The translations under genes and the position numbers were made by a program. From assembly GCF_000517085.1 (NCBI RefSeq), contig NZ_KI912107.1:3283980-3347979 (forward strand): a stretch of DNA of 64,000 nucleotides, given 5' to 3'. Positions 3,355-27,797 of the stretch are shown here, piece after piece (positions within the stretch are counted from its first letter, which is position 1; the number at the start of each line of letters is the position of its first letter). The notes below the pieces were generated by a model. It did no database searches, was not told where the DNA came from, and saw nothing but the letters and a program-made list of their open reading frames with translations. Origin of the DNA: Saccharicrinis fermentans DSM 9555 = JCM 21142 (GTDB taxonomy: Bacteria; Bacteroidota; Bacteroidia; Bacteroidales; Marinilabiliaceae).

Positions 3355-5328
3355 GTAGAGTAGAGCCTGATAGCTTACTCCCATTATTACTTCTAAAAGT
3401 AGCAATAATAAGTAAACTATCAGCGCCCCCTTCATCAAACCGTACGTGAAGTTTTCCCTCATACGGCTTACCGATAGAGTTCTTCATTGAGCTTTCGCAA
3501 GGGTTTTCAAGCGTGCATACTTTTCCAAGTCTAACAGCCTTTTGCTTTGTACAAAAGTACTGTATGGTCGCTGGCGAAGCGACTTGTGCGCTTTACGTCC
3601 TTTGCTTTTGAGCCATTTAAATAGTTTATAATCCAAGTGTTTGATGATAACCTTTATGGTTTCCCAAATGTGCGTTACCTTACTTATAGAGAAATAATTA
3701 AGCCAACCTATTAATAATGAGTTGAGCTTGTAAAGCAAAGGTTCAATCTTCCAATGCCTACGTTTTGCTAAAAGCTCACGAATGTTGGCAAAGAGTTTAC
3801 TCCTTGATTTCATACTCGGGCGGACGTTGGTATAGTTCTTCCTGTTCCAAGCGAATTTGGAGCGGATTACCCTGAACTCAAACCCCAAAAAGAATAGGCT
3901 TTTCTTATGCACATGCAAAATAGTTGTCTTTTCCTTATTGATGGTAAGCCCCATCCGTGTCATTAATGAATCGATATGTGCTAATATTTCTCTGCTGTAA
4001 TAGTAAGTTCCCATAAGCACAAAGTCATCGGCATAACGCACAATTCGTATGTTTGCTTTGGAGAATTTACTCTTTGAATTATTGACTATTCGGTCAAAAG
4101 CATGTAGGTAAATATTCGATAACAATGGACTAATAACCCCTCCTTGCGGCGTACCTGCTGTACTCGACAACAACTTTCCGTTCTTTAATTGTTTTGGGGC
4201 TGTTAACCACTGTTCGATAATATCCAGAATTCCTTTGTCACTGATGCGTTCTTTAAGCAGTACAAACAGTTTATCGTGAGGAATGGTATCGAAGTATTTC
4301 GATAAATCTGCATCATAGATGAAATGATGTCCATCGTAGATATTCTGTTTGATTTGCTTGATTGCATCCTGTGCCCCCCGTTTGGGTCTAAATCCATATG
4401 AAGTAGTAATAAAGTCGGCTTCCCAAAGTGGCTCAATCAGCATCTTAACAGCCATTTGTGCTACTCTGTCTTTTTTGGTGGGAATACCCAACATGCGAAA
4501 CTCACCTTTCTTCTCCTTCGGGATTTCTACCTGACGAACAGCCTGACTTCGGTAGGTATTGGTACGAAGTTCTGTTTGCAACTCCTTGAGGAATTTGGAT
4601 ACACCATATTTCTCAATATCTGCAAACGACATCTTGTCAACTCCTGTGCCTTTGGAATAATTCTGTTTTACTCTACGATAGGATTCCTCTATCACATAGT
4701 CTAAGCTCATCTTGTCGCTTAAACTATAAGCTTTAAATTCTTGTCTTGCTTGGCTCTAATGTATAGCTTCCTTTGGAATTCACGAACTCTTTCATCGGTC
4801 AGAAATGACGATGGACTTACTAATAGACTTGCGTCAATATAGGTCGTTCTGTTTTCCATATAAGCTTCTCTAAAGTAGAGCCCCTTCCCTATGCAGCGTT
4901 TTGTTGTCGCTACAGTCTGTGGTACTATGGGCTCCTCCGACTTCTCTTGTTTCCTTGCTGAATTTCGCTATGCTTATATCAGCCTGTTTAAGATTGCCAA
5001 ACTTTAAAACAAGAGACCTCCCACGTTCCGTAATAATCCATCTATAACCACGCCATCCCTATGACTCCGGTAGACCGTTGTATTTCAAATTGCTGTTAAT
5101 TCATACAACGTAACAGGGTTCGAAGACCGTCAAAACTCTCCCCATCTACTGATACACTTCTCGAAGCTACCACGGGTTCACGCTTGCGCATTACGGCTTG
5201 GTCATTTGAACATACCGAGCTTCAGCGAAGACCCTCACGGGCTTAACTGTCGGCAGCTCTTCTAAATGAACAGCAAATTATTTAGGTAGGATTTACACCT
5301 ACTGGATTACCACAGCTTCGTGGCACAC
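3355..5328 (-). mobile_element. Group II intron, copy A (reverse transcriptase frameshifted)
   Basis: Comparison of three near-identical copies in this window fixes the ends. The intron starts with GTGTGCCACG at 5328 (matching the GUGYG 5' consensus) and ends with CTCTAC at 3355. Length is 1974 bp. The 5' exon ends ACGTTG and the 3' exon starts TGTGCAACCC. The intron encodes one LtrA-like protein and has about 470 nt of non-coding 5' RNA. The target is the R' (GTTR) box of an attC-like site at 5329-5456. The short protein without an endonuclease domain and the attC target fit the group IIC-attC type; the class is inferred, not folded. Confidence 0.9.
3484..4859 (-). pseudogene. ltrA: Group II intron reverse transcriptase/maturase, frameshifted (copy A)
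   Basis: This corresponds to the intact 458-aa protein of copy C, but a one-base deletion near 4740 (one C lost, compared with copies B and C) separates the first about 40 codons (from ATG 4859) from the rest. An internal ATG at 4710 still opens a 408-aa frame containing all reverse-transcriptase motifs (the YADD active site and TPQGGVISPLLSN) and the maturase X domain (GWLNYFSI). Truncation removes only the N-terminal extension, so residual activity cannot be excluded. No HNH endonuclease domain follows the maturase domain. Confidence 0.88.
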
Positions 5329-5649: not shown

Positions 5650-6681
5650 ATGGGAGCAAAAGTTACTACAGCAATAGTTTTATATAAGGCTCAGTCAAAG
5701 AAAAATGGTAAGCACCCTGCTAAACTAAGGGTTACTTTTAACCGAAAACAAATGTATTATAGCATTGACAACAAAGAGCGTGTTTATGAATTTACCCCTG
5801 AAGAGTTTAATAAAGTCATTGCCCCAAAACCAAGAGGTGTTTTTAAAGATATCAAATTAGAATTTTCATTAATTGAGGATAAAGCCAATAAAATAATTGG
5901 CTCAATGGAAACTTTCTCTTTCAGGCAATTTAAAACCAAATTTGGCATTGCTGGAGGTGACCTTACAAATATCCTATTCTATTTTGAAAGACGTATTAAA
6001 GAGTTTGGCGATAATGACCAATGGTGTAGTTGGGCACAATTCACGACTACAATGAGAACTATTAAAAAATATTTTGGTAGCAATCAAGTTGACTTTAGAG
6101 AATTAACGGTACACGAATTAGAAAAATTTGAACAATGGATGACAGCACAAGACCTCTCCATGTCATCCATTAAAACTTATATGGCTTCGACCAGAACAAT
6201 ATTCAAGATTGCACAACGTGAGGGAGCCATTTCTAAAGATATTTACCCCTTTGGAGAAGGTGGTTACAAACTACCTTCAAGTCAGAATATAAAACGAGCT
6301 TTGAAAATGAATGAAATTGAAAAAATATACAAATACGAATGTAAGGAGTTTTCATATCGTGACGAGGCTAAAGATTTGTGGCTTTTCAGTTACCTTCTAA
6401 ATGGTGCGAATATGAACGATATTATAAGATTAAAGTATAAGAATGTAGATGATGAGTTCATTACTTTTATTCGAAGAAAGACAAGAAAAACTACAAAATC
6501 ATCCAAACCAATCAGTGTTGCTTATACTGATGATTTAAAAAGGCTAATTGACAAGTGGGGAAATAAAGACCGCTCACCTGAAAACTATATATTTCGTTTT
6601 ATCAATGAAGATATGACCGAAAAACAGGTAAGGCGCGGTTTAGACAGACTTATAAAAAGAACAAACGACCACATGAAAAAA
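5650..6681 (+). pseudogene. Tyrosine recombinase, N-terminal segment (split by IS256)
   Basis: Bacteroidota-type phage integrase. The N-terminal arm (about residues 1-100) is followed by a SAM-like core-binding domain (110-190) and the start of the catalytic domain, including the first catalytic Arg region (LLNGANMNDIIRLKYKNV). The coding sequence is interrupted after codon 344 (HMKK) by the IS256-family element at 6682; the open frame then runs a few codons into the IS. The rest lies at 8178-8266 and 10801-10933. Joining the three segments at the target duplications restores one uninterrupted frame of about 418 aa. A TATATTTG box at 5553-5560 is a possible -7 element. It is not IntI-like: I see no integron-specific insertion and the architecture is that of mobile-element integrases. 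Confidence 0.9.
6674..6681. repeat. 8-bp target duplication of the IS256-family element (left copy)
   Basis: TGAAAAAA at 6674-6681 is repeated at 8170-8177, immediately outside the inverted ends of the IS. Eight bp is the usual duplication length for IS256 insertion. Confidence 0.9.
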
Positions 6682-6734
6682 GAGACTGTAAACTCAACTC
6701 TGTCCATAATTTAAAAATTATATTTTTGAGGATT

Positions 6735-10619: not shown

Positions 10620-10800
10620 GTCTGTTTTTTCATCGCTTTCCTTTTTTTGGAAAAGCAAGATAAACAGACCTAAATCAATGTCCGGATGTTTCCGGAACGA
10701 CTGTCCGAATGTTTCCAGAATGAGTGTCCGAATAATTCCGGAATGCCTGTCCGGATGTTTTCAGAATGGGTGTCCGAATACTTCCAGAATATGCAGTTTC

Positions 10801-10933
10801 AACTGAATATATCGGGGAAAGCTTGGGACACAACAGTCTAAGAACAACAGAACTTTACCTTGATAGCTTTGAGGATGAAACAAAAAAAGAAGTAGCAAAA
10901 CATTTAACTGCATTTCAAAAAGAGAGTAATTAA
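10801..10933 (+). pseudogene. Tyrosine recombinase, C-terminal segment
   Basis: Completes the recombinase after the IS21 element: TEYIGESLGHNSLRTTELYL with the conserved LGH motif and the catalytic tyrosine in LYLDSFED, ending KEVAKHLTAFQKESN and a TAA at 10931-10933. All catalytic residues exist across the three segments, so precise loss of both IS elements would restore a complete gene. Confidence 0.88.
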
Positions 10934-11208: not shown

Positions 11209-11252
11209 GGCATTATTATAGTTATACTTTACAGTATAACTATAATAATGCC
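11209..11252. terminator. Perfect 20-bp stem hairpin, bidirectional terminator
   Basis: The arms 11209-11228 and 11233-11252 are perfectly complementary with a TTAC loop, flanked by A-rich and T-rich runs. It sits between the convergent recombinase remnant (plus) and the LytTR gene (minus), 8 bp after the LytTR stop codon. It is a good candidate transcription terminator for the YcaO operon. Confidence 0.75.
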
Positions 11253-11259
11253 TAATCTT

Positions 11260-11571
11260 TCAATTTAACACCTCCCTTATTTCATGTAATCTTTTTCGAG
11301 AAATATTTACATAAGTATCTTTGAACAGTCTTATACTCCTTTTGTCGCCAAGCTTAATGTTAGAATCAATAAAAGATGTATTTACCAAAGTATTATTGTT
11401 AACTTGTAAGAATCCTTGTTTTTTTAACTTCCTCTTAATTAGATAAAAGGGTTCTGTTGAAGTGTTATTTTTGCCATTTATTGTAAATATAATATTTAGG
11501 TTCGACTCATTTTTAATGTGAGTGATATGCTTAAGTTTAATGCTGTAATTTTCGGGAATTATAGTTAACAT
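11260..11571 (-). CDS. Stand-alone LytTR DNA-binding regulator
   Basis: This 103-aa protein consists almost entirely of a LytTR domain. The family pattern is visible as KKQGFLQVNNNTLVNTSFI in the middle and ISRKRLHEIREVL at the end. It has no receiver or membrane part, so its input must come from a partner or from its own level. It is the last gene of the minus-strand run precursor peptide, YcaO protein, MutS-like ATPase, LytTR (118-bp gap to the ATPase gene). LytTR regulators often control bacteriocin and peptide genes, so it may regulate this locus; that role is inference. Confidence 0.85.
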   Translation of the reverse strand: MLTIIPENYSIKLKHITHIKNESNLNIIFTINGKNNTSTEPFYLIKRKLKKQGFLQVNNNTLVNTSFIDSNIKLGDKRSIRLFKDTYVNISRKRLHEIREVLN

Positions 11572-11689
11572 TGGTTACGAATTATTGTTAATTTTTATAG
11601 TTAAGAAAACCAACAATCCCAAAAATGTAATTAGATTTTAATTGACATTCAAGAAATTGTTTTCTAATAACAAATTTGGGATTAGATAT

Positions 11690-13333
11690 TTAGATAAAAA
11701 AATTTAATTTTTGGGTTGATATTGCATTACTTAGTTCATTTGCTATTGAATATGACTCATTGATAACACCGATAGGAAAACCATACAATTCAAGTATTCT
11801 AATCGCATTTCTTGATGTTAATTTTCCATTCTTTAGTTTATAATCAAACTCAATCTTATCATTCTTTACAATTTCACTAAAGTGAAATAAGTCATACTCA
11901 TCTTTTAGCATGTCGGTAAGCTCTATATCATGGGTCGCTGCGAATACTATATTTTTATAGTTATTTAAATAGGAAAGTATCGATTTACTAGCTGCTATTC
12001 TCTCAATAGTATTTGTACCTTTTAATAATTCATCAAGTAAATATAGATTCCCATAATTATTACTCTCATCTGTCATCATTTCTTTAATTGTCAGAACTTC
12101 TTCTAAATAGTAACTCTTTTCATTAAGTAAATCATCACTAATTCGTATCGAAGTGTGCAAAATCATATTTGGAAATGCAATTGACTCTGCAAAACATGTA
12201 TTAATCGTTTGTCCTAGGATATAATTAATACCAATAGTTCTTATAAATGATGTCTTTCCTGACATATTAGAACCTGTAAGTAAAATTGACCTATTGCTAA
12301 TTGAGACTGAGTTAGTAACACAGTTTTCTATTAATGGGTGATATATATTTTTCGCATCAAATTGATTATAATTATCAGAAATAGTTGGAACGGAATATTT
12401 ATCTGTAGAAGAACGCAGATCGCTTATTGAACATAGAGCATCTACTTTCCCTGCGAAATTAAATACTCTCTCAATATCACTTTTGTGAGTATCTATTTTT
12501 CCTAAAATACTAAAAAGTAAGATTGGTTCGAGTAAAAATAAAGTTTTGAATAATTCTACAACCAACCAAAAAATTAAATAAATGTCATTTTGAAGTTTAC
12601 TGCTAAATAAATTAAGTATTAATTGCTTTCTTATCTTATCTATAGCTTTTAAGCTATCCCTTAATAAGGGATCAATGCACCTTAAGTGATTAAATTTATA
12701 TAATTCCTTGGCAACATTATTGAGTATTAAAACTTGTGGGATAGATATAGAATTTATGATTAGATTCTTTTTATTCCAATAATGAATGCCAACATTAATA
12801 ACCAACAATCCAATTAGTAAAAAAATAAGTTTTGGGAAAAATGGAAGTAAAGTTAAGCTTATAAGGCTTGTGATAGATAAAATTAAGATTATAAAATACC
12901 AACTAGGACGAACCAGTAGTTCGTCTTGAAATAAACTACTTATATAATATGCATCATCGTTGTTTAATTTACTCAACAATACCCTTAATTGACTCTTATC
13001 TTTTCTTATGTTATTTAAAATATTTTCTTCCTCATATTTATTATCAATGTCATTCTTTAATACTCTAAACCTATTGTATAGAAATTGTTGACCCACTTTA
13101 GAACTAGTCCGATCTATAAATTTAAATATTTCATCTAAATCTAAGTCATTATTAGTCCTGTCAGTTATTACTTGAAAACTATCTTTATGGTTATTCTTTT
13201 TAAAATACCTTTTAATTAGGTCAAAACTAAAAGAGCAAGTTTTGGGTGCAGAGAAATCTTCTTTTTGTTTAGAATTGTTGATTTTACTATAAAATGAATT
13301 TCTAGCATAACGTATAATATTTAAAACATCCAT
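11690..13333 (-). CDS. Membrane-anchored MutS-like ATPase
   Basis: This 547-aa protein carries a MutS domain V ATPase: Walker A LTGSNMSGKTS near residue 350, Walker B LYLLDELLKGT near 430, and a later FAATHDIELTD. Two hydrophobic segments at about 143-182 (FIILILSITSLISLTLLPFF and the following stretch), with a further hydrophobic stretch near 250-275, suggest membrane attachment. It lacks mismatch-binding domain I and the Smr nuclease, so it is neither MutS1 nor MutS2. It follows the YcaO gene by 12 bp and is clearly cotranscribed with it. In this setting a role in peptide maturation, export or immunity rather than DNA repair is likely, but unproven. Confidence 0.85.
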   Translation of the reverse strand: MDVLNIIRYARNSFYSKINNSKQKEDFSAPKTCSFSFDLIKRYFKKNNHKDSFQVITDRTNNDLDLDEIFKFIDRTSSKVGQQFLYNRFRVLKNDIDNKYEEENILNNIRKDKSQLRVLLSKLNNDDAYYISSLFQDELLVRPSWYFIILILSITSLISLTLLPFFPKLIFLLIGLLVINVGIHYWNKKNLIINSISIPQVLILNNVAKELYKFNHLRCIDPLLRDSLKAIDKIRKQLILNLFSSKLQNDIYLIFWLVVELFKTLFLLEPILLFSILGKIDTHKSDIERVFNFAGKVDALCSISDLRSSTDKYSVPTISDNYNQFDAKNIYHPLIENCVTNSVSISNRSILLTGSNMSGKTSFIRTIGINYILGQTINTCFAESIAFPNMILHTSIRISDDLLNEKSYYLEEVLTIKEMMTDESNNYGNLYLLDELLKGTNTIERIAASKSILSYLNNYKNIVFAATHDIELTDMLKDEYDLFHFSEIVKNDKIEFDYKLKNGKLTSRNAIRILELYGFPIGVINESYSIANELSNAISTQKLNFFI

Positions 13334-13345
13334 ACAAAATAAGAT

Positions 13346-15199
13346 TTAAGAAAATAACATATATAGTTCATTCTGGTTTGTATTTGAGTTTTTGGCATAG
13401 TTATTTACATTTACTGTTAAGTTGATCGTTTCGTAAGTTTTACAATCATTAATCAATACACAATTTTTACAATCGGGACATATTGGTATGTGAATTCCAT
13501 TTAGCACATTATTAGGGTTAAAATCATTAATCACTTCATCGGCTATACCTGTGCCAAATTTTTTACTTAGTTTCAAATAAGTTTGCTCCATATCAATTTT
13601 ATTTACCTTATCTTTTAGATATAGCATTGCCGCTTTATAATATGGAAACTTTCTTAAATCAATTTCACTTGTGTGCATATTCAAGAAGTTAACTGCTTTA
13701 ATATAATCTTCAGTATAAATGGATAAGACAACGAGAAAGTAACTCACCCTCAATTGTCCCCACATACTATTATTTACAAAGTCTAATTTTAGAACATCTT
13801 TCATTAATTCCATTGGTTCGTTTTCTAAGGCTAAAATTAGAAATTTAGCTTTGGTCTTATCCATTTTCAGAAATGGAAAAAATGCATCTTCAACTTTATC
13901 ACTTATAAAGCTTCGTTGAACTTCCTTTTCATCCCTATTTCGCATAAGCGAAGGACTTTTCTTTCCTATTACAGATATTTCAGGTATAAATATATGATAA
14001 GCTGGAAATCCTAAAAATGATACATCTCTGATATATAAGCTAAAGCCTAGCTGTTCAATAAAACTATTTAAAGACTTAATTTGATCTTCATAAGAACTGT
14101 CTCCTTCAAATATACTTAAATCCGATTCATAGCTATTTTCGGATCCAAATAGACTCTTTGGAAAAACACCACTACCATTAATTGTAAATTGCATAAATTG
14201 CTCCTTACGCTTATCTACTGAGGATTTATCACTATTCAAAAAATACTCATGTTCTACATCAGGAATAGGAAGCATAACATCCTCAAGATGTTTTCGTTCT
14301 TTTATTCCTTGAAAAATTTCTTGAAGAGATCTTGAGAGTGCAATAGGGAAATGTGTATCAGAACCGACGTTTAGTCTATAATAGTTGCGTTTTTCATCAA
14401 TAATAATAGTACCAATGCATGGTAATTTCTTACCAGCAGAAAAGTCCTTTATAATTACTTTATAGCCTTCTCTTTCAATCTCTTCAATTTTAGCATATTG
14501 TTTCTTAAATTTCTTTAATATCTGTTTAGATATTGTTGGTGGCGTTAACTGTTTGTTATATATTAAATTGGTTGAGTATCTCTCTAGGAGTTCGCAAATT
14601 CCTTGAAAGATAGCTTCAGCTGGACTATTCCCAGCGCACATACCATTTGATCCCGTTAAACTATGAAGAATATTGAATGGAAAATATTGTATGCTCTTAT
14701 TTTTAATATCATAGAAAGGTATACTTATAGCTCCGTTAAAGCTATTTTCCTTTAATCTATTAAAATATAATTCGAGATATTCGTTTAAATCAGTTTCAAT
14801 ATCTTTTTCAAATACCTTCAAAAAATCAGATGGTAATTCAAATATTTCTTCGTAGGTAATAATACGTTCATCCGGATAAAAGCAAAAACCAGTTTCTTCT
14901 TTTATTTTTGAATAAAGCCTTCTGGTCAAAGCTTTTGAGCCTAAATGCATATTATTCTGCAGTCTTTCAAGAAATTCTCCATAGGCACTAGCTAATGCAT
15001 ATTCTTTATTATCTCCCTTCCCATTAGTACCAAAACCATCTATAGTTTCAATTCTAACAGAATGAAATCCCTTAAAAATATTTTGCCATATAATTTCATA
15101 TGTAAAACAATCTATGTTAGAAAGTATATTTCTAATATTGTTAATAGTTGTAAGTGGTTTATGAGTTTTATAGTCTCTGTTTTTTAGATAATATTCCAT
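13346..15199 (-). CDS. YcaO-domain peptide-modifying enzyme
   Basis: This 617-aa protein has a YcaO core. ATP-binding signatures are visible as ALASAYGEFLERLQN (near residue 75) and GNSPAEAIFQGICELLERY (about 188-206). YcaO enzymes use ATP to activate backbone amides, forming azolines, thioamides or amidines in ribosomal peptides. The C-terminal third (about 400-617) looks like a helical, TPR-like extension ending in a cysteine cluster CPDCKNCVLINDC (about 573-585), a possible metal site. No E1-like partner or dehydrogenase is nearby. It lies 159 bp downstream of a 48-aa precursor-like peptide and directly upstream of the MutS-like ATPase. The exact chemistry cannot be read from the sequence. 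Confidence 0.88.
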   Translation of the reverse strand: MEYYLKNRDYKTHKPLTTINNIRNILSNIDCFTYEIIWQNIFKGFHSVRIETIDGFGTNGKGDNKEYALASAYGEFLERLQNNMHLGSKALTRRLYSKIKEETGFCFYPDERIITYEEIFELPSDFLKVFEKDIETDLNEYLELYFNRLKENSFNGAISIPFYDIKNKSIQYFPFNILHSLTGSNGMCAGNSPAEAIFQGICELLERYSTNLIYNKQLTPPTISKQILKKFKKQYAKIEEIEREGYKVIIKDFSAGKKLPCIGTIIIDEKRNYYRLNVGSDTHFPIALSRSLQEIFQGIKERKHLEDVMLPIPDVEHEYFLNSDKSSVDKRKEQFMQFTINGSGVFPKSLFGSENSYESDLSIFEGDSSYEDQIKSLNSFIEQLGFSLYIRDVSFLGFPAYHIFIPEISVIGKKSPSLMRNRDEKEVQRSFISDKVEDAFFPFLKMDKTKAKFLILALENEPMELMKDVLKLDFVNNSMWGQLRVSYFLVVLSIYTEDYIKAVNFLNMHTSEIDLRKFPYYKAAMLYLKDKVNKIDMEQTYLKLSKKFGTGIADEVINDFNPNNVLNGIHIPICPDCKNCVLINDCKTYETINLTVNVNNYAKNSNTNQNELYMLFS

Positions 15200-15320
15200 A
15201 AAAAAAATAATAAAAGAGGTAAATAGTCAAAAAAATAATGCAGTAATCTCATATCTTTATTATTAATGCAGCCATTCTTGATTCGTAGATGTATTGATTA
15301 ACGAATCGTGATTAAATATA

Positions 15321-15347
15321 AAAGGCTACCTCATTAAGATAGCCTTT
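15321..15347 (-). terminator. Hairpin between precursor-like peptide and YcaO gene
   Basis: AAAGGCTA (15321-15328) pairs with TAGCCTTT (15340-15347), followed on the minus strand by TTATATTTAATC. Lying between the small peptide gene and the enzymes, it could act as a partial terminator giving a high peptide-to-enzyme ratio, as is common in RiPP operons (inference). Confidence 0.65.
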
Positions 15348-15357
15348 ACAATTTAAA

Positions 15358-15504
15358 TTAAATAACTGCTCGTTCTGATGTAATAGCAATACACCCTGCA
15401 GCAAACATTGCACCAATGATGTATTCTTCCGCTGATGCTTTAACAATTACACCATTTTCAAATAAATGTTTCATTTGTTTCATGATTTTAGGTTTTGGTT
15501 GCAT
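15358..15504 (-). CDS. Candidate RiPP precursor peptide (48 aa)
   Basis: A short frame from ATG 15504 to TAA 15358. It begins MQPKPKIMKQMKHLFENGV and ends AMFAAGCIAITSERAVI. The charged N-terminal half fits a leader; the C-terminal part is small and hydrophobic with one Cys, one Thr and one Ser, residues a YcaO enzyme can use. AAG before Cys resembles a double-glycine-type cleavage site. It lies upstream of the YcaO gene on the same strand and is followed by a hairpin. The next upstream ATG is closed by a stop after five codons, which fixes this start. It was found from position, composition and size, not from a known family; no second precursor is seen. Confidence 0.65.
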   Translation of the reverse strand: MQPKPKIMKQMKHLFENGVIVKASAEEYIIGAMFAAGCIAITSERAVI

Positions 15505-15781
15505 TATAGTGGCATCACCATTCACTATTAACACTCTTTATGTACTATTTCATAGTAGTTATCCTACTAAATCTTAGGAACAACAAAGAATATGGAGTGA
15601 AATTAGTAATTTTTTTAATAAAAATTTAATATATTGATTCATTTGTTTATCAATAAGTATTAAATTAATAATTAGATATTATGATTCTTTTCCTTCAAAT
15701 GCTAATTGTGAGTGGAAGTTTATAGAATACAAAATCCTAATAAATCCTACGCTTGAAGGAAGAAACCTACCAAATAAGGTA
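15505..15781. other. Intergenic region between peptide locus and virus-like element
   Basis: 277 bp of AT-rich DNA. It should hold the promoter of the precursor-like peptide (a CAAAGAATA stretch near 15583 resembles an inverted -7 box with one extra base). No gene is seen. Confidence 0.5.
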
Positions 15782-16345
15782 CTATTTTGATTTAAAATTC
15801 ATAGAGTTCACTCTTGTTAACCAACCATCAAGGAACAAATGACTTTTACCTTTCTTGGCAATTTTATGGTAATAGCGGATTCTTGCTTTCTTAATCTCCC
15901 GAAACAAATCTTTTGGGTTGTGGATATTTATAGCTGTTAGGGTATTGAAGCCGATAATGCCATCCATCTTCAAATCTTCATCAAAGAACTGGTTTAGTAC
16001 ACGCTGAACACCTCTCGCTCCCCAATGACCACTATTGACACACCAATCAAAGATTATTTCTTGTAGAGAGCCATCAAGAATACCATCTATTTTGAACTTC
16101 TCAAAAAACGTCTCTTTATAAAAATCCTTAACGAATTGTGTCAGTTCAGGAACATCTATTTTGAAGTTCCACTTAATTGTGCCGTATGTTTCTTTATAGG
16201 CATCAATAAACTCCCAACCTTTCCAATTAGGATGTAAATTCCGGGCAACACCCATGTAGGTTTCCCCACCTCGGTCGCCCTCTACATTGGCATAATAGCC
16301 CTCATGTTTGATTACTCCATCAAACAAGTCATCAAATGTTTTCAT
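15782..16345 (-). CDS. GH108-type N-acetylmuramidase (endolysin)
   Basis: This 187-aa protein has an N-terminal glycoside hydrolase 108 motif, HEGYYANVEGDRGGETYMGV (about residues 14-33), in which Glu of HEG is the expected catalytic residue. A C-terminal PG_binding_3-like domain follows (QRVLNQFF.., DGIIGFNTLTAI). The family is typical of phage lysozymes that cut peptidoglycan. It overlaps the holin-like gene by 14 bp; together with the coiled-coil membrane protein they form a lysis module at the downstream end of the virus-like block. There is no signal peptide, so export through the holin is expected. Confidence 0.9.
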   Translation of the reverse strand: MKTFDDLFDGVIKHEGYYANVEGDRGGETYMGVARNLHPNWKGWEFIDAYKETYGTIKWNFKIDVPELTQFVKDFYKETFFEKFKIDGILDGSLQEIIFDWCVNSGHWGARGVQRVLNQFFDEDLKMDGIIGFNTLTAINIHNPKDLFREIKKARIRYYHKIAKKGKSHLFLDGWLTRVNSMNFKSK

Positions 16346-16775
16346 GCTTACGTCTGTTTTTAAGTTTGATATTATTTACTGCCGATACAGAACCACCAAA
16401 AAGGAAGTCGATAATGGTGCTTAGCTTGGTGGATATACCACCGTTGATACTGCTTATAAAAGCGATTTGCCAATCTTGTAACTCAATGGTTTGAAAAACA
16501 AAGTAGTTGAGCATCACGAAAGTCAAACCACACCAAGCAGCAAGAAAAAAGATGGCAAACATCTTTTGTAGCCAACTATCGTTAGCGTACATGGTTCGTG
16601 CAGAATCTCTATCTGCCACAGCCATTTTAAATAGCTCCATTTTCCCCTGAAGCTTTTCTTCTTTCGTGGTAAAAATTTCATCAATCAGCTTTGTTCCCTC
16701 TTTTAAGGTTTCTGCTACACCAGCTTGTGTTAGTTTCCTAAATAATTTCATTTGATTTTTTATTATCTCAGGCAT
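16332..16775 (-). CDS. Holin-like membrane protein
   Basis: 147 aa. A long amphipathic N-terminus is followed by DRDSARTMYA (about 73-82), two hydrophobic segments (KMFAIFFLAAWCGLTFVMLNYF and a weaker one near 110-130) and a basic tail KLKNRRKH. The RDSAR motif before the first membrane helix is typical of 3TM-type phage/GTA holins. It sits between the muramidase gene and a coiled-coil membrane protein, the expected place for a holin. Confidence 0.75.
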   Translation of the reverse strand: MPEIIKNQMKLFRKLTQAGVAETLKEGTKLIDEIFTTKEEKLQGKMELFKMAVADRDSARTMYANDSWLQKMFAIFFLAAWCGLTFVMLNYFVFQTIELQDWQIAFISSINGGISTKLSTIIDFLFGGSVSAVNNIKLKNRRKHENI

Positions 16776-16781
16776 TGCCTG

Positions 16782-17114
16782 TCATCGTTCTACAAATTTT
16801 AATATGGTATCAAGCTTCTCGTTAAGCTGCTTTATGGTTTGATGGAACAGCTCTTTGCTGACATAAATCTCTTTAGAACTATCCCTTAAATCAGAAACTC
16901 GCTTATGCAGTATGGTAAATTTGGTTTCAGCTCCTTCAAGTTCTTTTGTTAGATGCAGAATATCCTTTTCAAGCAAATCAGTTTTAGCTTCAACGCTTTC
17001 CTTTGTGGCATTCTTGGTTATCGCATTGCGGATAACGAAAGAGACTACACCTACAATGAGCGAGCTGAACCCTGCAATGACTACCCAATAGAATTTAATT
17101 GTCATTTCATCCAT
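16782..17114 (-). CDS. Small membrane protein with coiled coil (lysis-module partner?)
   Basis: 110 aa: one N-terminal transmembrane helix (about 8-28, WVVIAGFSSLIVGVVSFVI) and then a heptad-rich coiled coil to the C-terminus. The shape resembles an inner-membrane spanin subunit, or a virion membrane protein. It is 6 bp upstream of the holin-like gene. I do not recognise the family; the spanin idea comes from topology and location only. Confidence 0.65.
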   Translation of the reverse strand: MDEMTIKFYWVVIAGFSSLIVGVVSFVIRNAITKNATKESVEAKTDLLEKDILHLTKELEGAETKFTILHKRVSDLRDSSKEIYVSKELFHQTIKQLNEKLDTILKFVER

Positions 17115-17116
17115 AC

Positions 17117-17644
17117 TTAAAAGATTTTAATGGTTTCAGTACTACCTTCCGGAAAGCGATTTTTCTCCATTGTGGCGCTCCTGTTTTCGATGTGCATAAT
17201 GGCATCTACTAGGTGTTCGTATTTCGTCCCACCTTTCGATGTGCCATCACGGTTTGCTTGATTAATAATCACAAATGAGGTTCGTGGAAATTGCTTTTTC
17301 AACTCGACCAATTCCTCGTGCGAGACTTCTGTTGTTTGGGTACTGTCGATAAAAACCACATCGTAATCCTTGAATAGTTTAGGATTATAGTCTTCGATAA
17401 TTCCAATTGGACTATTGATGCCAAGACGTACAACTTTCTCTTGCATCGTTCCTTTTGCACCCTCTTCATTGGCTACATAGAGGACTTTAAAACCATGCTG
17501 CTTTACTAATTCATCGGCAAACATTAAAGCAACCGTACTTTTGCCATGAAAGCGTGAGCCGTAAATCATTATGTAAAATGGGAAATATAGCTTACCTAAG
17601 AGCTTGCCAAATTTGCCTTTTATAGTGATGGTCTTAAAATTCAT
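17117..17644 (-). CDS. RecA-fold P-loop ATPase of the virus-like element
   Basis: 175 aa from the ATG at 17644. Walker A GSRFHGKST near residue 29, KVLYVANEEG as in RadA/DnaB-type proteins, and Walker B DVVFIDSTQ near 95. It could be a packaging or helicase-loading ATPase. The reading frame stays open for a further 123 bp upstream of the ATG and would encode NATTKITPNGSG onwards, ending VLANDLAK. That stretch looks like real protein but has no canonical start codon before the stop of the gene at 17767. So either the start is here, or an unusual or mutated start lies near 17766. Confidence 0.75.
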   Translation of the reverse strand: MNFKTITIKGKFGKLLGKLYFPFYIMIYGSRFHGKSTVALMFADELVKQHGFKVLYVANEEGAKGTMQEKVVRLGINSPIGIIEDYNPKLFKDYDVVFIDSTQTTEVSHEELVELKKQFPRTSFVIINQANRDGTSKGGTKYEHLVDAIMHIENRSATMEKNRFPEGSTETIKIF

Positions 17645-17766
17645 CTTGGCAAGGTCATTTGCTAAAACAACCTGATCGGATGCAATGGCTGTGGTTCTTG
17701 CAGTACTTCGGGTTATTGCCCTGTTTTTTAAGCCACTACCGTTGGGCGTAATTTTGGTAGTGGCAT

Positions 17767-18684
17767 TTACTTTCCCAATCCGGCAATACCTTGTAAACCT
17801 TTAAGCTGAACATTGGTAACAAGCAATTTGTCACTCTCCAGATAATCATGTAAGTGTTTCTGAACGTTCTTAACCTGTTCAAACTCCTTTTCGGACTTCT
17901 TAACCTTACCATTTTTTAATGAGTTGGTAACAGAAGTTAATAGTCGTTGTGCTTTTGCTTTTGTGATATTACCATATAGATTGATAAAACGTTTTATCAA
18001 TGCAACTGCAGGAGTTACACCATAATCATCAACTATGTTCTTGAGTTTATTGTAAAGTGAATCAGGAACTTCAAACTTACATGTGCCATTCATGGACTTG
18101 TAGGTCTTAATAAGGTCATTTCCGATGCTTTTAATCTCAGCTGCATACTTGCTTGATTTGCGAATGGTCTTTTCTGTAGCAGCCTTTTGAATAACCTTAT
18201 ACAATAGCGATACTTGACGTTCGCTAACCCTTTTGTTGTGGAAGTTCAGATAACGCCTGATTATCTTTATCTCCAATGGCATTAGGTCAACCTCGATAGG
18301 CTTTCGTTGTGCCTGTTTAGATGTTCTGTTCATGGAGCTTTTGGGTGCGACTGTTTTTCTTTTGGTTGTTTTGGGTTTTGATGTAGGTTTCTTCTTTTTA
18401 CTTTCACGATATTCCTTTAACACTTCTTTGTACTGACCTGATTCTTTATCTAGGATATTTAAAGGATGCCTATCTTCAAGTTCAGGGAAGCGTTTTGTGT
18501 TCTGTTTCAAATATGGCTCAACTATCTTGAAATGATTATCAAGCATTTCTTTAATGTCCTTGTCTTCATTGTAGAAATCAGCAAATGAATCAAACTCTTT
18601 ATGTGCTTCACGAGCTGCTTCTGGTAGTTTTTTGAAATCTATATTTCTAGTAGCTTCTTTGTAATTTTTAACTGTAAGTTTCAT
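17767..18684 (-). CDS. Uncharacterised basic protein of the virus-like element
   Basis: 305 aa, Lys-rich, with a central disordered basic stretch (KKKKPTSKPKTTKRKTVAPK, about 96-115) between two helical regions. The C-terminal half (about 130-300) is helical and ends LQGIAGLGK. No known domain is recognised. It lies between the SNO helicase and the ATPase on the same strand. The SNO protein ends in a similar KLVKLRAKAILIKQKQLR motif also found at the end of the methyltransferase, but this protein lacks it. A nucleic-acid-binding or core-protein role is possible. Confidence 0.65.
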   Translation of the reverse strand: MKLTVKNYKEATRNIDFKKLPEAAREAHKEFDSFADFYNEDKDIKEMLDNHFKIVEPYLKQNTKRFPELEDRHPLNILDKESGQYKEVLKEYRESKKKKPTSKPKTTKRKTVAPKSSMNRTSKQAQRKPIEVDLMPLEIKIIRRYLNFHNKRVSERQVSLLYKVIQKAATEKTIRKSSKYAAEIKSIGNDLIKTYKSMNGTCKFEVPDSLYNKLKNIVDDYGVTPAVALIKRFINLYGNITKAKAQRLLTSVTNSLKNGKVKKSEKEFEQVKNVQKHLHDYLESDKLLVTNVQLKGLQGIAGLGK

Positions 18685-18715
18685 CGTATAAATATTTTAT
18701 AGTTTCTGAATTGGT

Positions 18716-21700
18716 TTAAAGCCCGGCTACTGCTCGAAGCTGTTTCTGCTTAATTAGGATTGCTTTTGCACGGAGTTTTACAAGCTTTAATTGCTTTCCG
18801 CTATCAAGCTTTATCTTTTTGCCTTTCGGTGCTGCTTGTTTCTGCTTGGCTAGTCGTTTTGGGAACTCCTTTTTATCTTGCTCAAACATCTGCATTGCCT
18901 CATTGGTAAGGCTGTCTGTGGTGGTGTCCCGTTTTGTTCCTTTATCCAAATACTCATCGTAATAATGACGTGGTATTTTAACCGATAAACTGAATCGCTC
19001 TCCAAGTAGGTTAATCAGCTTGGGCATTTTACTTTCTTCTACCGAAGCTCTCATATTACCCGATACCATCTCAAAACCGTCACGATTATTGACCAAAAGC
19101 TTTAACACTTCTTTATCCGTGTATATTGGAATATGGCTTTTAGTTTTAGGCATGATGACCTTGAAAGTATCATCATAATGCCTAGCTATTGTGATTCTGT
19201 TTTCGGTGGCAATAGTTGAGCCATTGCGTAGGCTCATAATATGTTTTTGAAGTTTGGCTATTGGAGCTACAACGTAATTATCTGCCTTATTATCGTTGTT
19301 GTCAGGCGACCAGGCTTCTGACATTAAAATTCCTTTCTGAACACCTCTACCTTTGGTTGTAAAGCTTACCAACTTGCCTGAAAAATCGGCAGCTCCTTGT
19401 AAGATATTTCCTGTTACGATGTAGCGGTTTTGCCTATCTGCTGTAAAGGCTTTAATCGCTTCATCCCATCGGTCAATTAATATTTCTTTCTGATTTGATG
19501 TGAGCTGTATACTACGGCTCATAATCCGCTCAATTTCCTTGGCTGTATCGCCCGATGCAGCCAACACGATGTATTTACGACTGTCTGAAATGGCAAAGCG
19601 TAACTTTACCGAAGATGGCGCATAAGGATTCTTGCGTTTTGTGTTAATATCAAAGCCTAAAAAGATACAATAGGAATTATCGCTACTATCGGTTTCAAAG
19701 CTTACCGCAGGATAGAAATAGCCATGCCCAACCTTGAAGTATTTGAAGAAGTTATTTAAGTAGCGTTGACGGTTTTCGCTTTGTGTTTTTATTCGAGTGG
19801 TATCAAGCCCTTTGGCTTTAATGATTTCATCTTCACGCTCAACGATATATTGCATTCGCTGTTGCTTCTCAAACACAGGGATTTTCTGATACCCTTTTTC
19901 TTCAGGAATACCATCCAACAAGTCTTTATACTTCTCTTCTAAGTCCTTTATATCGGAACTCAGCTTATTTTGCACATACTTCTCATGTGCGAAAACTATA
20001 TCTTCAGAAATGCCATCTGGCTGTTTATTACCGAGAGCCTTTTGTATCAATTTCTCAACATCAGCTTTGACATAAGGCTTTTTGAGTACATTACATTCAC
20101 ATTTTTCTAATAGTGTATCGTTACCAAAAACCGAGCGTCCACCTTTCCCGGCAATGACCACATTCTTATCAATGGATTCCGCTTTTAGATTTAAAATCTC
20201 CACTTCTAAGTCATATTCATCGGCTTGTTTGAGGTATTCGATATAATCGTTATAACGCTCAATAATCTCGCTATAAAATTTCTCTTGTTCCTTTACAGAA
20301 AGAACGGCTACACGACCCGTTACTTTTGAAGCATCGCCCTCTGTTGGCGTTCCATCACTATCCTTACCATCAAACTTTAATGGGTTGTCCAAAGCTTTGT
20401 TTAGCTCTTCGTTTTCCAACATGTATTGACGTACCACTTTGTCTCCGTACTTATTTAAAAAGTCGTCCGATTCCAATTGTGATTTACTGTTCTTTTGGTT
20501 GGAGGTAGTATTCGCATCCAATGATTTCAGCTTCTTTTTAAGCATCATCATAAAACGCTTTTGTGCAGGAATAGCAGAAATAATGTAATCGTAAATCGGT
20601 TTCATTATTTGCCCTGTACGATTGATTCTACCACGCTTTTGAATCTCGGTGTTGATGTTCAATTCCGGTTGGAGTATCACCATCACACGCTGCTTCACTT
20701 TATCAGCTGATACTTTATCGGTAACAATGGCATGTGCTGAAGCTCCTGTCGAACCACTTTGATTGATAAGCAAACAATCCAATTCATTCTCATTAAACTG
20801 ACGAAATAAATCCGCTGTATTTTCTTTTTTACGCCTCATTACCAATGCCGTTGTATTCTTAGCTTTGGTAGAGTTGTATTGTACACAAAGCTTACGCCCC
20901 GTAACTTCGCCAACTGAATAGCCGGCTTCTTTTATTTTTTGGATGATTAGGTCCAGTGGGCTAATGGTAATTCCTGTTGAAGCTTGTTCAATTCGTCTGA
21001 TAATATCATGGTAAGCCAATTGAGCATCTTCGGACAAATCTGATATGTTAAAGGTTTTCCCTTGACCTTCGCCATCAATATCTTTCTCTGTATAGCGGAG
21101 AACTGAATCCAATCCTTTCTCCAATACGATAGAAAAATCTCCGTTTATCACATCATCGGGTTTTGCCATGCCTTCTAAAAAACTTCCCATTGTGGAGGCA
21201 AAAGCAATGATCGGCTTTTTGCCTTGCTTCAATCTCTGTATGGCATGTTCGGCAACATCGGAGGCATTGATACTAAACAGCAATTGGTTAATGACATTAA
21301 AGACCTTTGAGAAATACGGTACATTATCAACCCCTGCTTTGCTTGTTCCTTTTCTGGTTTCAACTTCCTTTCCCTCGGCTGCTGCAATGCCATCTAGCTC
21401 CTTTACTTGCTTGTTGATATACTTCTCCTGGAAGCCTATAATATCACGAATGATAGCCGTAACCTTGTCTGCAATATCAGCCTGTTCTTTGGCTTTTTCT
21501 TTTAGTTCAATGTAGTTTACTTCAACACCCTCGAAAGAGCGTTCACGCCTTATCATTTGTCCCTCACTCACCAATTGTGCAGCGAGTACTTCTTGCAAGG
21601 CTACACCGCCTTTCATAATCGCCTCTACCAAATCTTCTTTGCTCATATTGGCATCACTCATAGATGTTTTTTGAGCATAAATTGGCATGTTATCTGGACG

Positions 21701-22633
21701 CTTAGCAAATGTGGCGGATAGGAAACAAACACCTTTGGTTTGGCGCAATACATCTTGCATAAATTCGCCTGTATTAGAACTTCCTGAAGCATTGTGAGCT
21801 TCGTCCATGATAATGACATTACCATTGGCTACAGAACTTAGAAACTGCTGTTTGGCTGGTTTTTTCGGTTGGTTGAATTGTGAATAGGTAGCACAAATAA
21901 AATTGTAATTATTGGGTGCTTTCTTACTCTTAATAATCCGCTCCTGAGTAGGCTTTTCGGGAGCTGTATAAATCACTTCTCCGCTTTTATCCTTGATATT
22001 GGTTTTACTCTCTTTGGTATTCACTATAAACGGAACCAGGGCAGAACTTCCTATGTCTGATAAATCGCGATACAAGTCCGTAAACAGATTGGGCTTTTCA
22101 GATAAGAACACAGGCTGCAAACCACTTTTCACACCGTAGCGAATTAAAGCTGCTGCCGTTCTCCCTTTACCAATGCCTGTTTGGTCGCCAACGATGATTC
22201 CTTGCTTACGTTTTTCAATATTGTAGATAGCTAATGATACAGCATCAATCTGTTCACACGAAAGAGACTTTACCAAGTCATCATTTTCGTAATCGAGTTT
22301 CTCGGCAACGAAATCAAACAGAGGCATCCCAATGCTTTTCTTGATTTTACGGATGGCAATGTGCATTTCATGCCCCATCGAATCGGGTACTGTAGTATCT
22401 AGTATAAAACCTTTCTCGGCTGTTGGAATATAAGCCATACCCAAGCCTTGAACACCAAGCATACCTTGTAGGTATTCATGCTCATTCTGAGCCAGCTTTT
22501 TGGTGCGCACAAAGCTTTTGTTGTTGGTGGTTTTAAAACCTAGCTCAATAAGCCTTGTAGATATATGTTGTGGTGGAACACTACCAAACTTGACGGTAAT
22601 GCTATTTTTAGTGAATGCTATTGCCTGTTTCAT
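18716..22633 (-). CDS. Strawberry-notch (SNO)-type helicase/ATPase
   Basis: 1305 aa. The superfamily 2 core has Walker A GDQTGIGKGRT near residue 150, MDEAHN near 276, SATFAKRP near 305, and helicase motif VI INRTGQI near 671, followed by a long C-terminal region. Strawberry-notch-like SF2 proteins are found in large phages and mobile elements, next to DNA methyltransferases. The gene overlaps the methyltransferase by 4 bp and was likely translated with it. Both proteins end with a near-identical peptide (KLVKLRAKAI.IKQKQL in this one, KLLKLHAKAISIKQKQL in the other), an odd shared tail. Substrate unknown; remodelling or replication of element DNA is inferred. Confidence 0.85.
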   Translation of the reverse strand: MKQAIAFTKNSITVKFGSVPPQHISTRLIELGFKTTNNKSFVRTKKLAQNEHEYLQGMLGVQGLGMAYIPTAEKGFILDTTVPDSMGHEMHIAIRKIKKSIGMPLFDFVAEKLDYENDDLVKSLSCEQIDAVSLAIYNIEKRKQGIIVGDQTGIGKGRTAAALIRYGVKSGLQPVFLSEKPNLFTDLYRDLSDIGSSALVPFIVNTKESKTNIKDKSGEVIYTAPEKPTQERIIKSKKAPNNYNFICATYSQFNQPKKPAKQQFLSSVANGNVIIMDEAHNASGSSNTGEFMQDVLRQTKGVCFLSATFAKRPDNMPIYAQKTSMSDANMSKEDLVEAIMKGGVALQEVLAAQLVSEGQMIRRERSFEGVEVNYIELKEKAKEQADIADKVTAIIRDIIGFQEKYINKQVKELDGIAAAEGKEVETRKGTSKAGVDNVPYFSKVFNVINQLLFSINASDVAEHAIQRLKQGKKPIIAFASTMGSFLEGMAKPDDVINGDFSIVLEKGLDSVLRYTEKDIDGEGQGKTFNISDLSEDAQLAYHDIIRRIEQASTGITISPLDLIIQKIKEAGYSVGEVTGRKLCVQYNSTKAKNTTALVMRRKKENTADLFRQFNENELDCLLINQSGSTGASAHAIVTDKVSADKVKQRVMVILQPELNINTEIQKRGRINRTGQIMKPIYDYIISAIPAQKRFMMMLKKKLKSLDANTTSNQKNSKSQLESDDFLNKYGDKVVRQYMLENEELNKALDNPLKFDGKDSDGTPTEGDASKVTGRVAVLSVKEQEKFYSEIIERYNDYIEYLKQADEYDLEVEILNLKAESIDKNVVIAGKGGRSVFGNDTLLEKCECNVLKKPYVKADVEKLIQKALGNKQPDGISEDIVFAHEKYVQNKLSSDIKDLEEKYKDLLDGIPEEKGYQKIPVFEKQQRMQYIVEREDEIIKAKGLDTTRIKTQSENRQRYLNNFFKYFKVGHGYFYPAVSFETDSSDNSYCIFLGFDINTKRKNPYAPSSVKLRFAISDSRKYIVLAASGDTAKEIERIMSRSIQLTSNQKEILIDRWDEAIKAFTADRQNRYIVTGNILQGAADFSGKLVSFTTKGRGVQKGILMSEAWSPDNNDNKADNYVVAPIAKLQKHIMSLRNGSTIATENRITIARHYDDTFKVIMPKTKSHIPIYTDKEVLKLLVNNRDGFEMVSGNMRASVEESKMPKLINLLGERFSLSVKIPRHYYDEYLDKGTKRDTTTDSLTNEAMQMFEQDKKEFPKRLAKQKQAAPKGKKIKLDSGKQLKLVKLRAKAILIKQKQLRAVAGL

Positions 22634-23655
22634 ATAGAGAGTTGTTTTTGTTTTATGGAGATTGCTTTAGCGTGTAGCTTTAATAATTTCAGCTTGTCGG
22701 TATCGTTGCTAATAAGCTGAGGTTCTAGCCATACTCTATCCCAAAGCTCTTCATGGTTATTGACAATGGTGCTATGCAATTTATTTTTAAGTGGAGCTGC
22801 GCCTGATGGTGTTTCTTTAGCTCCATCAATCAGAATCAATCGTGTATTGATTGAAGTTCCTTGTCTGGAGTAAAGCTTCTTGCCGTTAATTAGGATGATG
22901 TCTTCTACATTGTAAAAATGATAGAGGTAATTCAGGAAAATGCGATTGTTCCCCGCAGTTACTCTGCCTTGTTCATCCCAGGTGGTATGACCACCTATGA
23001 TAATGGCTGCTTTGCCCTTGTCTTTCATGCAGCGTAAGGCATTCAGAGCCATAGCATGTTCTAATCGTTTGATTTTGAATTTCCCAAATAGAATGGGTTC
23101 AGAAAGTGAACCGAAAGGTGGATTGGTAACTATTCCATCAAAATTTTCGTCATATACTTTGGGAGGTTGCAAGGCATCCCAACTACTAATATTTGCAAAT
23201 GGCTGCTGCTTGAGGTTTTCAAGTCTTACATCATCCAATTCATTTACAAATGTCTTTCTGTATGGAAGTGCAATGGTCAATAAACCATTGCCTGCTGATG
23301 GTTCGAGGTAAATGGATTCATTGCTCGAATTAAGAATATAACTCGAAGCCAAAAACGAAATAGGTGCAGGAGTGGAATATTGCTGCATGAGAACGCTCAT
23401 GCTCGTTCTCATGGACAGGTTAACCTGTGATTGGTAAAGGGCTACAATATCAAGGTACTTTTCGTAAGTGCTTAACGAACTATCGTGTGCTACCTCTCTT
23501 GCGTTAAGGATTATTGCCAGTTCGGTAAACTCTTTAACAAGGTTCTTATTGGTAATACCGAAGCTTTTAGCAATACTTTCTATTGTGGTTTTAGAGTGCT
23601 TGCGAGCGCCCAGTAAATCCTCACGAACTCTTGATATGTAGCCCTTTTTATCCAT
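22630..23655 (-). CDS. Adenine-N6 DNA methyltransferase-like protein
   Basis: 341 aa. Class I methyltransferase fold: SAM-binding motif EPSAGNGLLTIAL near residue 118 and catalytic TNPPFGS near 180, the NPPF motif of N6-adenine methyltransferases. A helical N-terminus (1-90) precedes it. The gene starts 8 bp after the fibre gene ends and overlaps the SNO helicase start. The C-terminus carries the same KLLKLHAKAISIKQKQL tail as the helicase. It probably protects element DNA from restriction or marks it for the helicase; specificity is unknown. Confidence 0.85.
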   Translation of the reverse strand: MDKKGYISRVREDLLGARKHSKTTIESIAKSFGITNKNLVKEFTELAIILNAREVAHDSSLSTYEKYLDIVALYQSQVNLSMRTSMSVLMQQYSTPAPISFLASSYILNSSNESIYLEPSAGNGLLTIALPYRKTFVNELDDVRLENLKQQPFANISSWDALQPPKVYDENFDGIVTNPPFGSLSEPILFGKFKIKRLEHAMALNALRCMKDKGKAAIIIGGHTTWDEQGRVTAGNNRIFLNYLYHFYNVEDIILINGKKLYSRQGTSINTRLILIDGAKETPSGAAPLKNKLHSTIVNNHEELWDRVWLEPQLISNDTDKLKLLKLHAKAISIKQKQLSI

Positions 23656-23663
23656 TTAGAGAT

Positions 23664-26453: not shown

Positions 26454-26472
26454 TTTAATATCTTATAAGTTT

Positions 26473-27096
26473 TTAAATCATTGAATAGGCTTGCTCAAAG
26501 AGTTGCGGAGTGATAAAGCTCTTGCCATTTTCCACTTTTGTCATTGAGAGAACCAAAAGGCGAAGCGTGTTTTTTGTTGGTCGTAGCTTGGTTTGTGGCT
26601 GCACCTTTAAATCTTTACAGACTGTATTGATGTATGCCTTTGTGTTATTTTCAAAGCTTGGAGCATAACGCTTTACAATCTTCTCAACCGTAGTAAATCC
26701 TTTGCCCATATAGTTCTGCAAAAGCTTTATCATAGCCCTAACACCATATTCAGGAGCCATAAACATCTCAAATCGTCTGTCTTTGTTCTGGTCCTTGGAT
26801 AGCTTACCATGCCACTTACTATTGCTTTGAATGATATTGCCCGGATTGTTATTACGAATCCCTCTGGGCATTGATGCGAGGTAAGTGCTGCTACCATTCC
26901 AATTCTTAAAATTAGGAGGCAGCGCATTGTTATTTGTAGTTAGAATATTTGCAGGACTTTTGTCAGAACCACCTTGGGGCAATAGCCCACGTTTGCGTTT
27001 GTTTCTTCTGCGAATCAAAACAATTGTGGTCACTATCGCCCCGGTGGTTAACACCCCTCCCGAAATAAATAATATCTTCTTTTTCTTTGCATCCAT
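26473..27096 (-). CDS. Membrane-anchored virion-type peptidoglycan hydrolase
   Basis: 207 aa. An N-terminal membrane helix (about 8-28, ILFISGGVLTTGAIVTTIVL) is followed by RRRNKRKRG. A lysozyme-like domain begins RGIRNNNPGNI near residue 78 and continues EYGVRAMIKLLQNYM and RYAPSFENNTKAYI. The RGIRNNNPGNI module occurs in phage structural and lytic proteins. A transmembrane anchor plus a transglycosylase-like domain recalls P7 of membrane-containing phage PRD1; that comparison rests on architecture, not alignment. Confidence 0.75.
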   Translation of the reverse strand: MDAKKKKILFISGGVLTTGAIVTTIVLIRRRNKRKRGLLPQGGSDKSPANILTTNNNALPPNFKNWNGSSTYLASMPRGIRNNNPGNIIQSNSKWHGKLSKDQNKDRRFEMFMAPEYGVRAMIKLLQNYMGKGFTTVEKIVKRYAPSFENNTKAYINTVCKDLKVQPQTKLRPTKNTLRLLVLSMTKVENGKSFITPQLFEQAYSMI

Positions 27097-27109
27097 AGTT
27101 TACTGTGTT

Positions 27110-27586
27110 TTAGAGAGGGATTCCCCAACTGTCGAACTTAGGTTTGATTTTGGCAATCTCTTTGTCGCCTAACTCAAAACGAAGCCAACCAATCAGGTTG
27201 TGGTTTTGTCCTAAAAGAGCAGCCCGCCCTCCAATCAAGTACATCTTTAGACCAAAGGCTTTAATTACAAGCAGCATGTCATCCTTGGTTTTCACCTTGT
27301 CTATGGTGCTATAAATCGTTTCTTCATCTGTACCAAAATCAAGCATTGCACCGTAAAGGGTGTTGGCAAATAAGGCAGCATCCGATGGCGATATGGTCAG
27401 ATTCTGTTGTTTTATCTCCATTTTCTTTATCGAAGGAGCTGCACTGGCTGATGTGCCGTCAGGATTCCTACGCTTTTTGATGGCACGATAAATCAAGAAT
27501 CCCCCAATGCTTAAAGCGACAAAGGGAATACCTACACGAATGCCTGTGCCAATGAGTGCTGATTTGCTTGCCTTATCCAACTCCAT
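27110..27586 (-). CDS. Small single-span membrane protein
   Basis: 158 aa. A membrane helix at about 10-30 (ALIGTGIRVGIPFVALSIGG) is followed by AIKKRRNPDG and a soluble C-terminal domain (about 50-158) with no known family match. It is positioned 14 bp before the hydrolase gene, which has the same N-terminal layout. The two may both be anchored in a virion or host membrane. Confidence 0.65.
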   Translation of the reverse strand: MELDKASKSALIGTGIRVGIPFVALSIGGFLIYRAIKKRRNPDGTSASAAPSIKKMEIKQQNLTISPSDAALFANTLYGAMLDFGTDEETIYSTIDKVKTKDDMLLVIKAFGLKMYLIGGRAALLGQNHNLIGWLRFELGDKEIAKIKPKFDSWGIPL

Positions 27587-27596
27587 AGCTTAATTT

Positions 27597-27773
27597 TTAG
27601 ATGTATCGTAATGCCGTTTTTACAATCGTTGGATTCTTCGCCACCTTGCTCAGCAGCTTAACAATATCCTCTTGTTCCACCTTATCAACTGCGTTTTGAA
27701 TAAGGTTTCCAACTTGCTTAACCGTCTCTGTTGTATCGGCTTCAATCGTTATTCCTACTTTGAATTTTCTCAT
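27597..27773 (-). CDS. 58-aa conserved-looking small protein
   Basis: ATG at 27773 to TAA at 27597. It reads MRKFKVGITIEADTTETV, with a helical middle, and ends KNPTIVKTALRYI. It is on the same strand as, and tightly packed with, the genes at 27110 and 27798. Its composition (strand then amphipathic helix) looks like a real small protein; family unknown. Confidence 0.65.
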   Translation of the reverse strand: MRKFKVGITIEADTTETVKQVGNLIQNAVDKVEQEDIVKLLSKVAKNPTIVKTALRYI

Positions 27774-27797
27774 AATCGTCTATTTTTTTTAGTTGAC

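Follow-up and report, generated by a model that had tools for sequence, protein, structure and literature searches.

The DNA analysed here, a stretch of 64,000 nucleotides from Saccharicrinis fermentans DSM 9555 = JCM 21142 that is referred to as the window, contains a unit of four co-directional ORFs on the minus strand, framed by two stable hairpins. The unit begins with a 48-codon ORF (15358..15504) of coding-like composition, which encodes a putative precursor peptide, MQPKPKIMKQMKHLFENGVIVKASAEEYIIGAMFAAGCIAITSERAVI. The gap between this ORF and the YcaO gene harbors a terminator- or attenuator-like hairpin, AAAGGCTATCTTAATGAGGTAGCCTTT (15321..15347, minus strand), detected in the terminator scan with a folding energy of −17.6 kcal/mol (z −4.8). 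The YcaO gene (13346..15199) encodes a protein of 617 aa (Pfam YcaO PF02624, 1.2e-45) with a C-terminal Cys4 motif, CPDCKNCVLINDC. It is followed by a gene for a MutS domain-V ATPase of 547 aa (11690..13333; Pfam MutS_V, 2.9e-24), in which two hydrophobic stretches were located by hydropathy at residues 139–187 and 250–277, and by a gene for a LytTR DNA-binding protein of 103 aa without a receiver domain (11260..11571; Pfam LytTR, 7.1e-8). A long hairpin (11209..11252, minus strand; −29 kcal/mol, z −8.5; terminator scan) lies at the end of the unit, after LytTR. The four ORFs and both hairpins had been described in an earlier note made from the sequence alone, and their coordinates, strand, Pfam matches and folding energies all agree with that description, as do the spacing of 12 bp between the YcaO and ATPase genes (ORF coordinates 15199-13346 and 13333-11690) and the C-terminal Cys cluster of YcaO, which consists of Cys574/577/580/586. 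The gap between the ATPase and LytTR genes is 118 bp, and the GC content is 29% in the YcaO gene and 27% in the ATPase gene, versus 37.5% in the window. The listing of ORFs and Pfam matches also bears out that an exporter, an E1-like partner and a peptidase are absent from the four-gene unit, within which no immunity gene of a known type was found; two C39 ABC exporters are encoded elsewhere in the same genome.

The structure of the YcaO protein was predicted by AlphaFold with a mean pLDDT of 87.7, and the closest solved structure to the model is that of E. coli YcaO (4q86; Z 43, rmsd 4.3, 22% identity over 552 residues), which is closer to it than any solved RiPP YcaO. The profile match to E. 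coli YcaO (E 2.3e-97) stops at 545 of 604, and the Cys4 motif lies beyond it. On the basis of the model and the sequence together, the protein groups with full-length, E. coli-type YcaO proteins. Among 33 homologues, the ATP residues E75, E78, E203, E206, R207, R290, E294 and Q297 are invariant, and three cysteines of the C-terminal cluster (Cys577, Cys580 and Cys586) show a conservation of 90% or more, the Cys4 motif being common to the family. The PF02624 match and the invariant ATP residues are as expected for a RiPP-type modifying enzyme. The model of the S12 methylthiotransferase accessory YcaO (NF040716) gave 205 bits, below its cut-off of 700 bits, and that of the SagD-type cyclodehydratase (TIGR03604) gave 67 bits, below its cut-off of 219. 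A precursor-recognition domain was not apparent in the YcaO, and the Pfam search of the unit revealed neither an E1-like nor an ocin-ThiF partner gene. The YcaO gene is rare, being present in 2 of 71 family genomes and, at a loose threshold and with the window's own genome counted, in 6 of the 393 genomes sampled from the order.

The length of the 48-codon ORF is within chance expectation for a gap this rich in AT (P about 0.13), its GC content by codon position (0.48/0.35/0.19) is coding-like (P 0.003), and so is its codon usage (P 0.008). An alternative GTG start at 15534 would extend it to 58 codons. No convincing Pfam family was obtained for the encoded peptide, and no homologues were found in the 71 family genomes or in plasmids. 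The Bacteroidetes-type −7 motif occurs in the window at chance-level frequency, with none just upstream of the peptide start. Residues 29–32 of the peptide, IIGA, resemble a double-glycine-type cleavage site. The earlier reader was probably right to regard this ORF as the precursor. A likeness to the precursor of L010, a Bacteroidales locus, which was noticed by eye (GCIAITSERAVI vs GFLITGREATVR), was discarded because BLASTP gave no alignment.

On its right-hand side, the unit is flanked by a GH108 endolysin (15782..16345, minus strand; Pfam 3.3e-18; PHROG endolysin; alignment with locus L172), together with a holin, an ATPase, a Strawberry-notch helicase and a methyltransferase. To the left is a tyrosine integrase broken by IS256-like (judged from ORF sequences) and IS21-type elements; its N-terminal part (5650..6714, plus strand; Phage_int_SAM_5, 1.2e-13) is homologous to L172 6818-8095, and its C-terminal remnant is found at 10766..10933 (plus strand), where 10796-10934 matches L172 7973-8114. 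The phage-type matches in the element comprise the endolysin, the holin, the ATPase and one of transglycosylase type, and no capsid or terminase of a complete prophage was recognised in it. Related modules are widespread in the family genomes, often in multiple copies and with helicases that are 82–90% identical, and the integrase of L172 is 80% identical to that of the window. The homology between L172 and the window stops at 10934 and resumes at 15819, so the extra DNA corresponds to the unit and its flanks; the distance from the end of the integrase to the endolysin homology is 258 bp in L172 versus 4,885 bp in the window. Across the sister elements, this gap is either short, as in L172, or otherwise filled. 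As judged from these alignments, the unit is cargo in a slot of a phage-like integrative element, bordered on the right by the endolysin and on the left by the integrase remnant, a mobile setting that the earlier note had missed.

Other occupants of the position between endolysin and integrase include viperin with NERD and a kinase (L185) and an RmrA-like protein (L174), among others, and Avs3a (L182), PtuA/PDC-M01A (L179) and PDC-M68 (L187) were detected beside the endolysin, as seen from the endolysin side. Clear PADLOC matches were obtained in 5 of the 12 slots whose proteins were checked, and some slot occupants are cargo without a defence match. A search of PADLOC-DB (E 0.001) returned 0 families for all four proteins of the unit. 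The sharing of the slot with viperin, Avs3a and other defence genes raises the question of whether such elements carry modified peptides as weapons or defences. Across L171-L187, the relatives of window 15782-28901, the endolysin-side slot also holds ABC-3C-like and many unknown genes, and it is a promising site for the discovery of new defence or accessory systems.

Relatives of the YcaO were gathered across bacteria and some archaea; the scan of genome contigs gave no match with the single YcaO as query and 79 loci with an alignment as query, and no relatives of the YcaO or of the MutS-like ATPase were found in viral contigs. The nearest relative, from an Oligoflexia bacterium (L071), has 37% identity and is sister to the window's YcaO in the tree (SH-aLRT 99). 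Its locus is arranged in the order MFS transporter, 25-aa ORF, hairpin, YcaO and M29-like peptidase, where the 25-aa ORF has a strong ribosome site (AAGGAG) and the hairpin a folding energy of −29 kcal/mol (z −4.6), and the order of peptide, hairpin and YcaO is common to L071 and the window. Among the Bacteroidales, relatives were observed with Lant_dehydr_N (LanB-like), LANC_like and radical SAM proteins (L110), with two radical SAM enzymes (L133), with a Cys-rich peptide of 44 aa, MKVSELLLEEATLLVENTNNNLVAEMAACGCFGCGMGCSGTVGM, plus a radical SAM enzyme (L091), and with an exporter of the C39 type alongside a double-glycine peptide and an outer-membrane receptor (L120 and L010), while a short ORF lies directly upstream of the YcaO relative in L100 and L103. 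A short ORF with a hairpin at any distance upstream was found for 9 of 39 YcaO genes versus 38 of 225 other genes and is thus not distinctive. At 40–200 bp upstream, the combination was found for 8 of 39 YcaO genes versus 19 of 225 other genes of these loci (P 0.03, an optimistic value since this limit was picked after the result at unlimited distance), and in the Bacteroidota subset for 4 of 10 versus 6 of 46, which is not significant (P 0.07). This enrichment lends modest support to the pairing of a precursor with the YcaO.

The MutS-like ATPase has MutS_V as its sole Pfam domain over cut-off, and its P-loop and other ATPase residues are invariant in 14 relatives. A mismatch repair MutS is not indicated, as the mutS1 model gave 82 bits against a cut-off of 641.7 and no other MutS domain was detected. 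The KamC model matches residues 278-525 (8e-24) with 84 bits against a cut-off of 300, and the protein is therefore not KamC; it resembles KamC and stand-alone MutS_V proteins in having MutS domain V and no mismatch-recognition domain, and differs from KamC in the low score and in its membrane-type hydrophobic stretches. Members of the subfamily are frequent in the family and the order, extend to Staphylococcus and are usually encoded by a stand-alone gene. The earlier note had taken the ATPase for a dedicated partner of the YcaO, a view to be given up if YcaO homologues were found without the ATPase. This is what was observed, since the ATPase adjoins the YcaO in none of 76 YcaO relatives, and the ATPase as a conserved YcaO partner was rejected. 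What stands of the RiPP reading in that note is that members of the YcaO family occur in RiPP clusters and that several of them are directly preceded by a short ORF and a hairpin. In L129, a weak match to the ATPase (25%) lies four genes from the YcaO.

In 5 of 24 loci examined (L055, L056, L059, L062 and L063), the ATPase gene lies beside, or at most two genes from, a co-directional ABC transporter gene, and in L059 and L062 double-glycine bacteriocin-like peptides are encoded near it, with no modifying enzyme seen. These neighbours make a role of the ATPase in export or immunity thinkable, and no paper linking MutS-like ATPases with bacteriocins was found in the literature searched. Two tandem MutS-like genes were also observed in the same genome (L063, contig C3, 2097538-2099642), downstream of genes for an ABC ATPase and a large membrane protein. 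As for the LytTR protein, a LytTR-only protein heads a second RiPP-like cluster of the window's genome (L221, 6313-12789), whose other genes encode a radical SAM enzyme, a beta-barrel protein of the outer membrane and a C39 exporter, along with an ORF of 56 aa; by analogy, this supports the view that LytTR-only proteins regulate peptide clusters.

Stand-alone YcaO enzymes without an E1-like partner are known in RiPP pathways, namely those of streptamidine (PMC8442711) and of ItfB and P. gulae BGC8 (PMC10352776), and this type of enzyme is therefore not new. ItfB has been shown to make a C-terminal backbone amidine, and Bacteroidales examples of stand-alone YcaO are among those given (PMC10352776). 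In the parts of these papers available to us, the streptamidine, ItfB and BGC8 clusters resemble the unit in having a stand-alone YcaO, a short precursor gene (putative in the window) and no E1-like partner; unlike the unit, they contain a dehydrogenase-like protein or a radical SAM enzyme, and they are not reported there to include a MutS-like ATPase. The Bacteroidales stand-alone-YcaO clusters, within the same portions of text, further differ from the unit in carrying a C39 exporter and an outer-membrane gene. Sublancin, a RiPP (glycocin), is located on the Bacillus subtilis prophage SPbeta and is an earlier case of a RiPP carried by phage DNA (PMC6391423). The unit probably represents a modified-peptide system that travels with its element and is new but has precedents. 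Sublancin differs from it in its glycocin chemistry, its dedicated immunity protein and its phylum, and we know of no YcaO in the sublancin system.

On balance, we lean towards the unit being a RiPP-like cassette with a stand-alone YcaO, carried as accessory cargo by the phage-like integrative element. The short ORF would then be the precursor gene and be highly transcribed; most transcripts would terminate at the hairpin that follows, and read-through of this hairpin would allow expression of the YcaO. The enzyme would bind ATP and activate a backbone amide towards the C terminus of the peptide, in the region of MFAAGCIAITSERAVI, possibly yielding an amidine, a thioamide or an azoline, and the LytTR protein may control transcription of the unit. 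Given the similarity of IIGA to a double-glycine site, cleavage and export of the product may fall to one of the two C39 exporters encoded outside the unit. The membrane ATPase might act as an immunity or export helper, or be an independent passenger; that it is a functional partner of the phage-carried YcaO and peptide in an anti-phage or inter-element weapon seems very improbable. Should the YcaO indeed modify the product of the short ORF, a peptide family with a stand-alone YcaO would be added to those of the described clusters.

Three other explanations were weighed against this cassette. The YcaO and peptide may form one cassette while the ATPase and LytTR genes are separate passengers in the same slot, which we regard as possible though rather doubtful. 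It agrees with the lack of any YcaO relative with an adjoining ATPase, with the mostly stand-alone occurrence of the ATPase subfamily and with the 118-bp gap before LytTR, whereas the 12-bp spacing and shared direction of the YcaO and ATPase genes, their similarly low GC content and the framing of the genes by hairpins argue for a single unit. A use of the cargo in defence, with a modified peptide, or the YcaO on an internal target, acting intracellularly against phages or elements and the ATPase as sensor or effector, appears unlikely. The defence genes found in the same slot (L185, L174) and adjoining the same endolysin (L182, L179, L187), as well as the lack of an exporter, would suit it; against these stand the empty PADLOC-DB search for the unit's proteins, the presence of non-defence-matching cargo in the slot and the RiPP clusters around YcaO relatives, several of which include exporters.

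Less likely still is that the YcaO modifies, or assists in modifying, a protein of the cell, in the way that E. coli YcaO acts on ribosomal protein S12, and that the short ORF is spurious. The full-length match to E. coli YcaO (4q84-4q86), its best solved relative in fold and profile, and the NF040716 score point in this direction, but that score is far under the 700-bit cut-off, and the Cys4 motif forms an extension outside the match to E. coli YcaO. The enzyme is moreover rare and located on mobile DNA here, unlike a housekeeping gene, and therefore fits a ribosomal role poorly. The occurrence of relatives in RiPP clusters and the coding-like composition of the 48-codon ORF also favor the RiPP-like cassette over this explanation.

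Several further features were observed among the YcaO loci and in the window. The Bacteroidales locus L110 (3122-15108) combines three YcaO genes with LanB-like, LanC-like and radical SAM genes. In Clostridia, short ORFs with tandem repeats (e.g., CIDCIDCIDC) lie downstream of the YcaO in L073, L083, L085, L092, L096 and L097, and a protein of 108-113 aa that looks YlbF-like is encoded upstream of it in L080, L083, L098 and L104. The ORFs at L011 9860-10573 and L012 9375-10070, from two different genomes, correspond to the C-terminal half of YcaO only and begin at nearly the same residue. The window itself also harbors three near-identical, group II intron-like reverse-transcriptase ORFs (3484-4710, 34415-35791 and 43281-44657), the middle one of which is broken.
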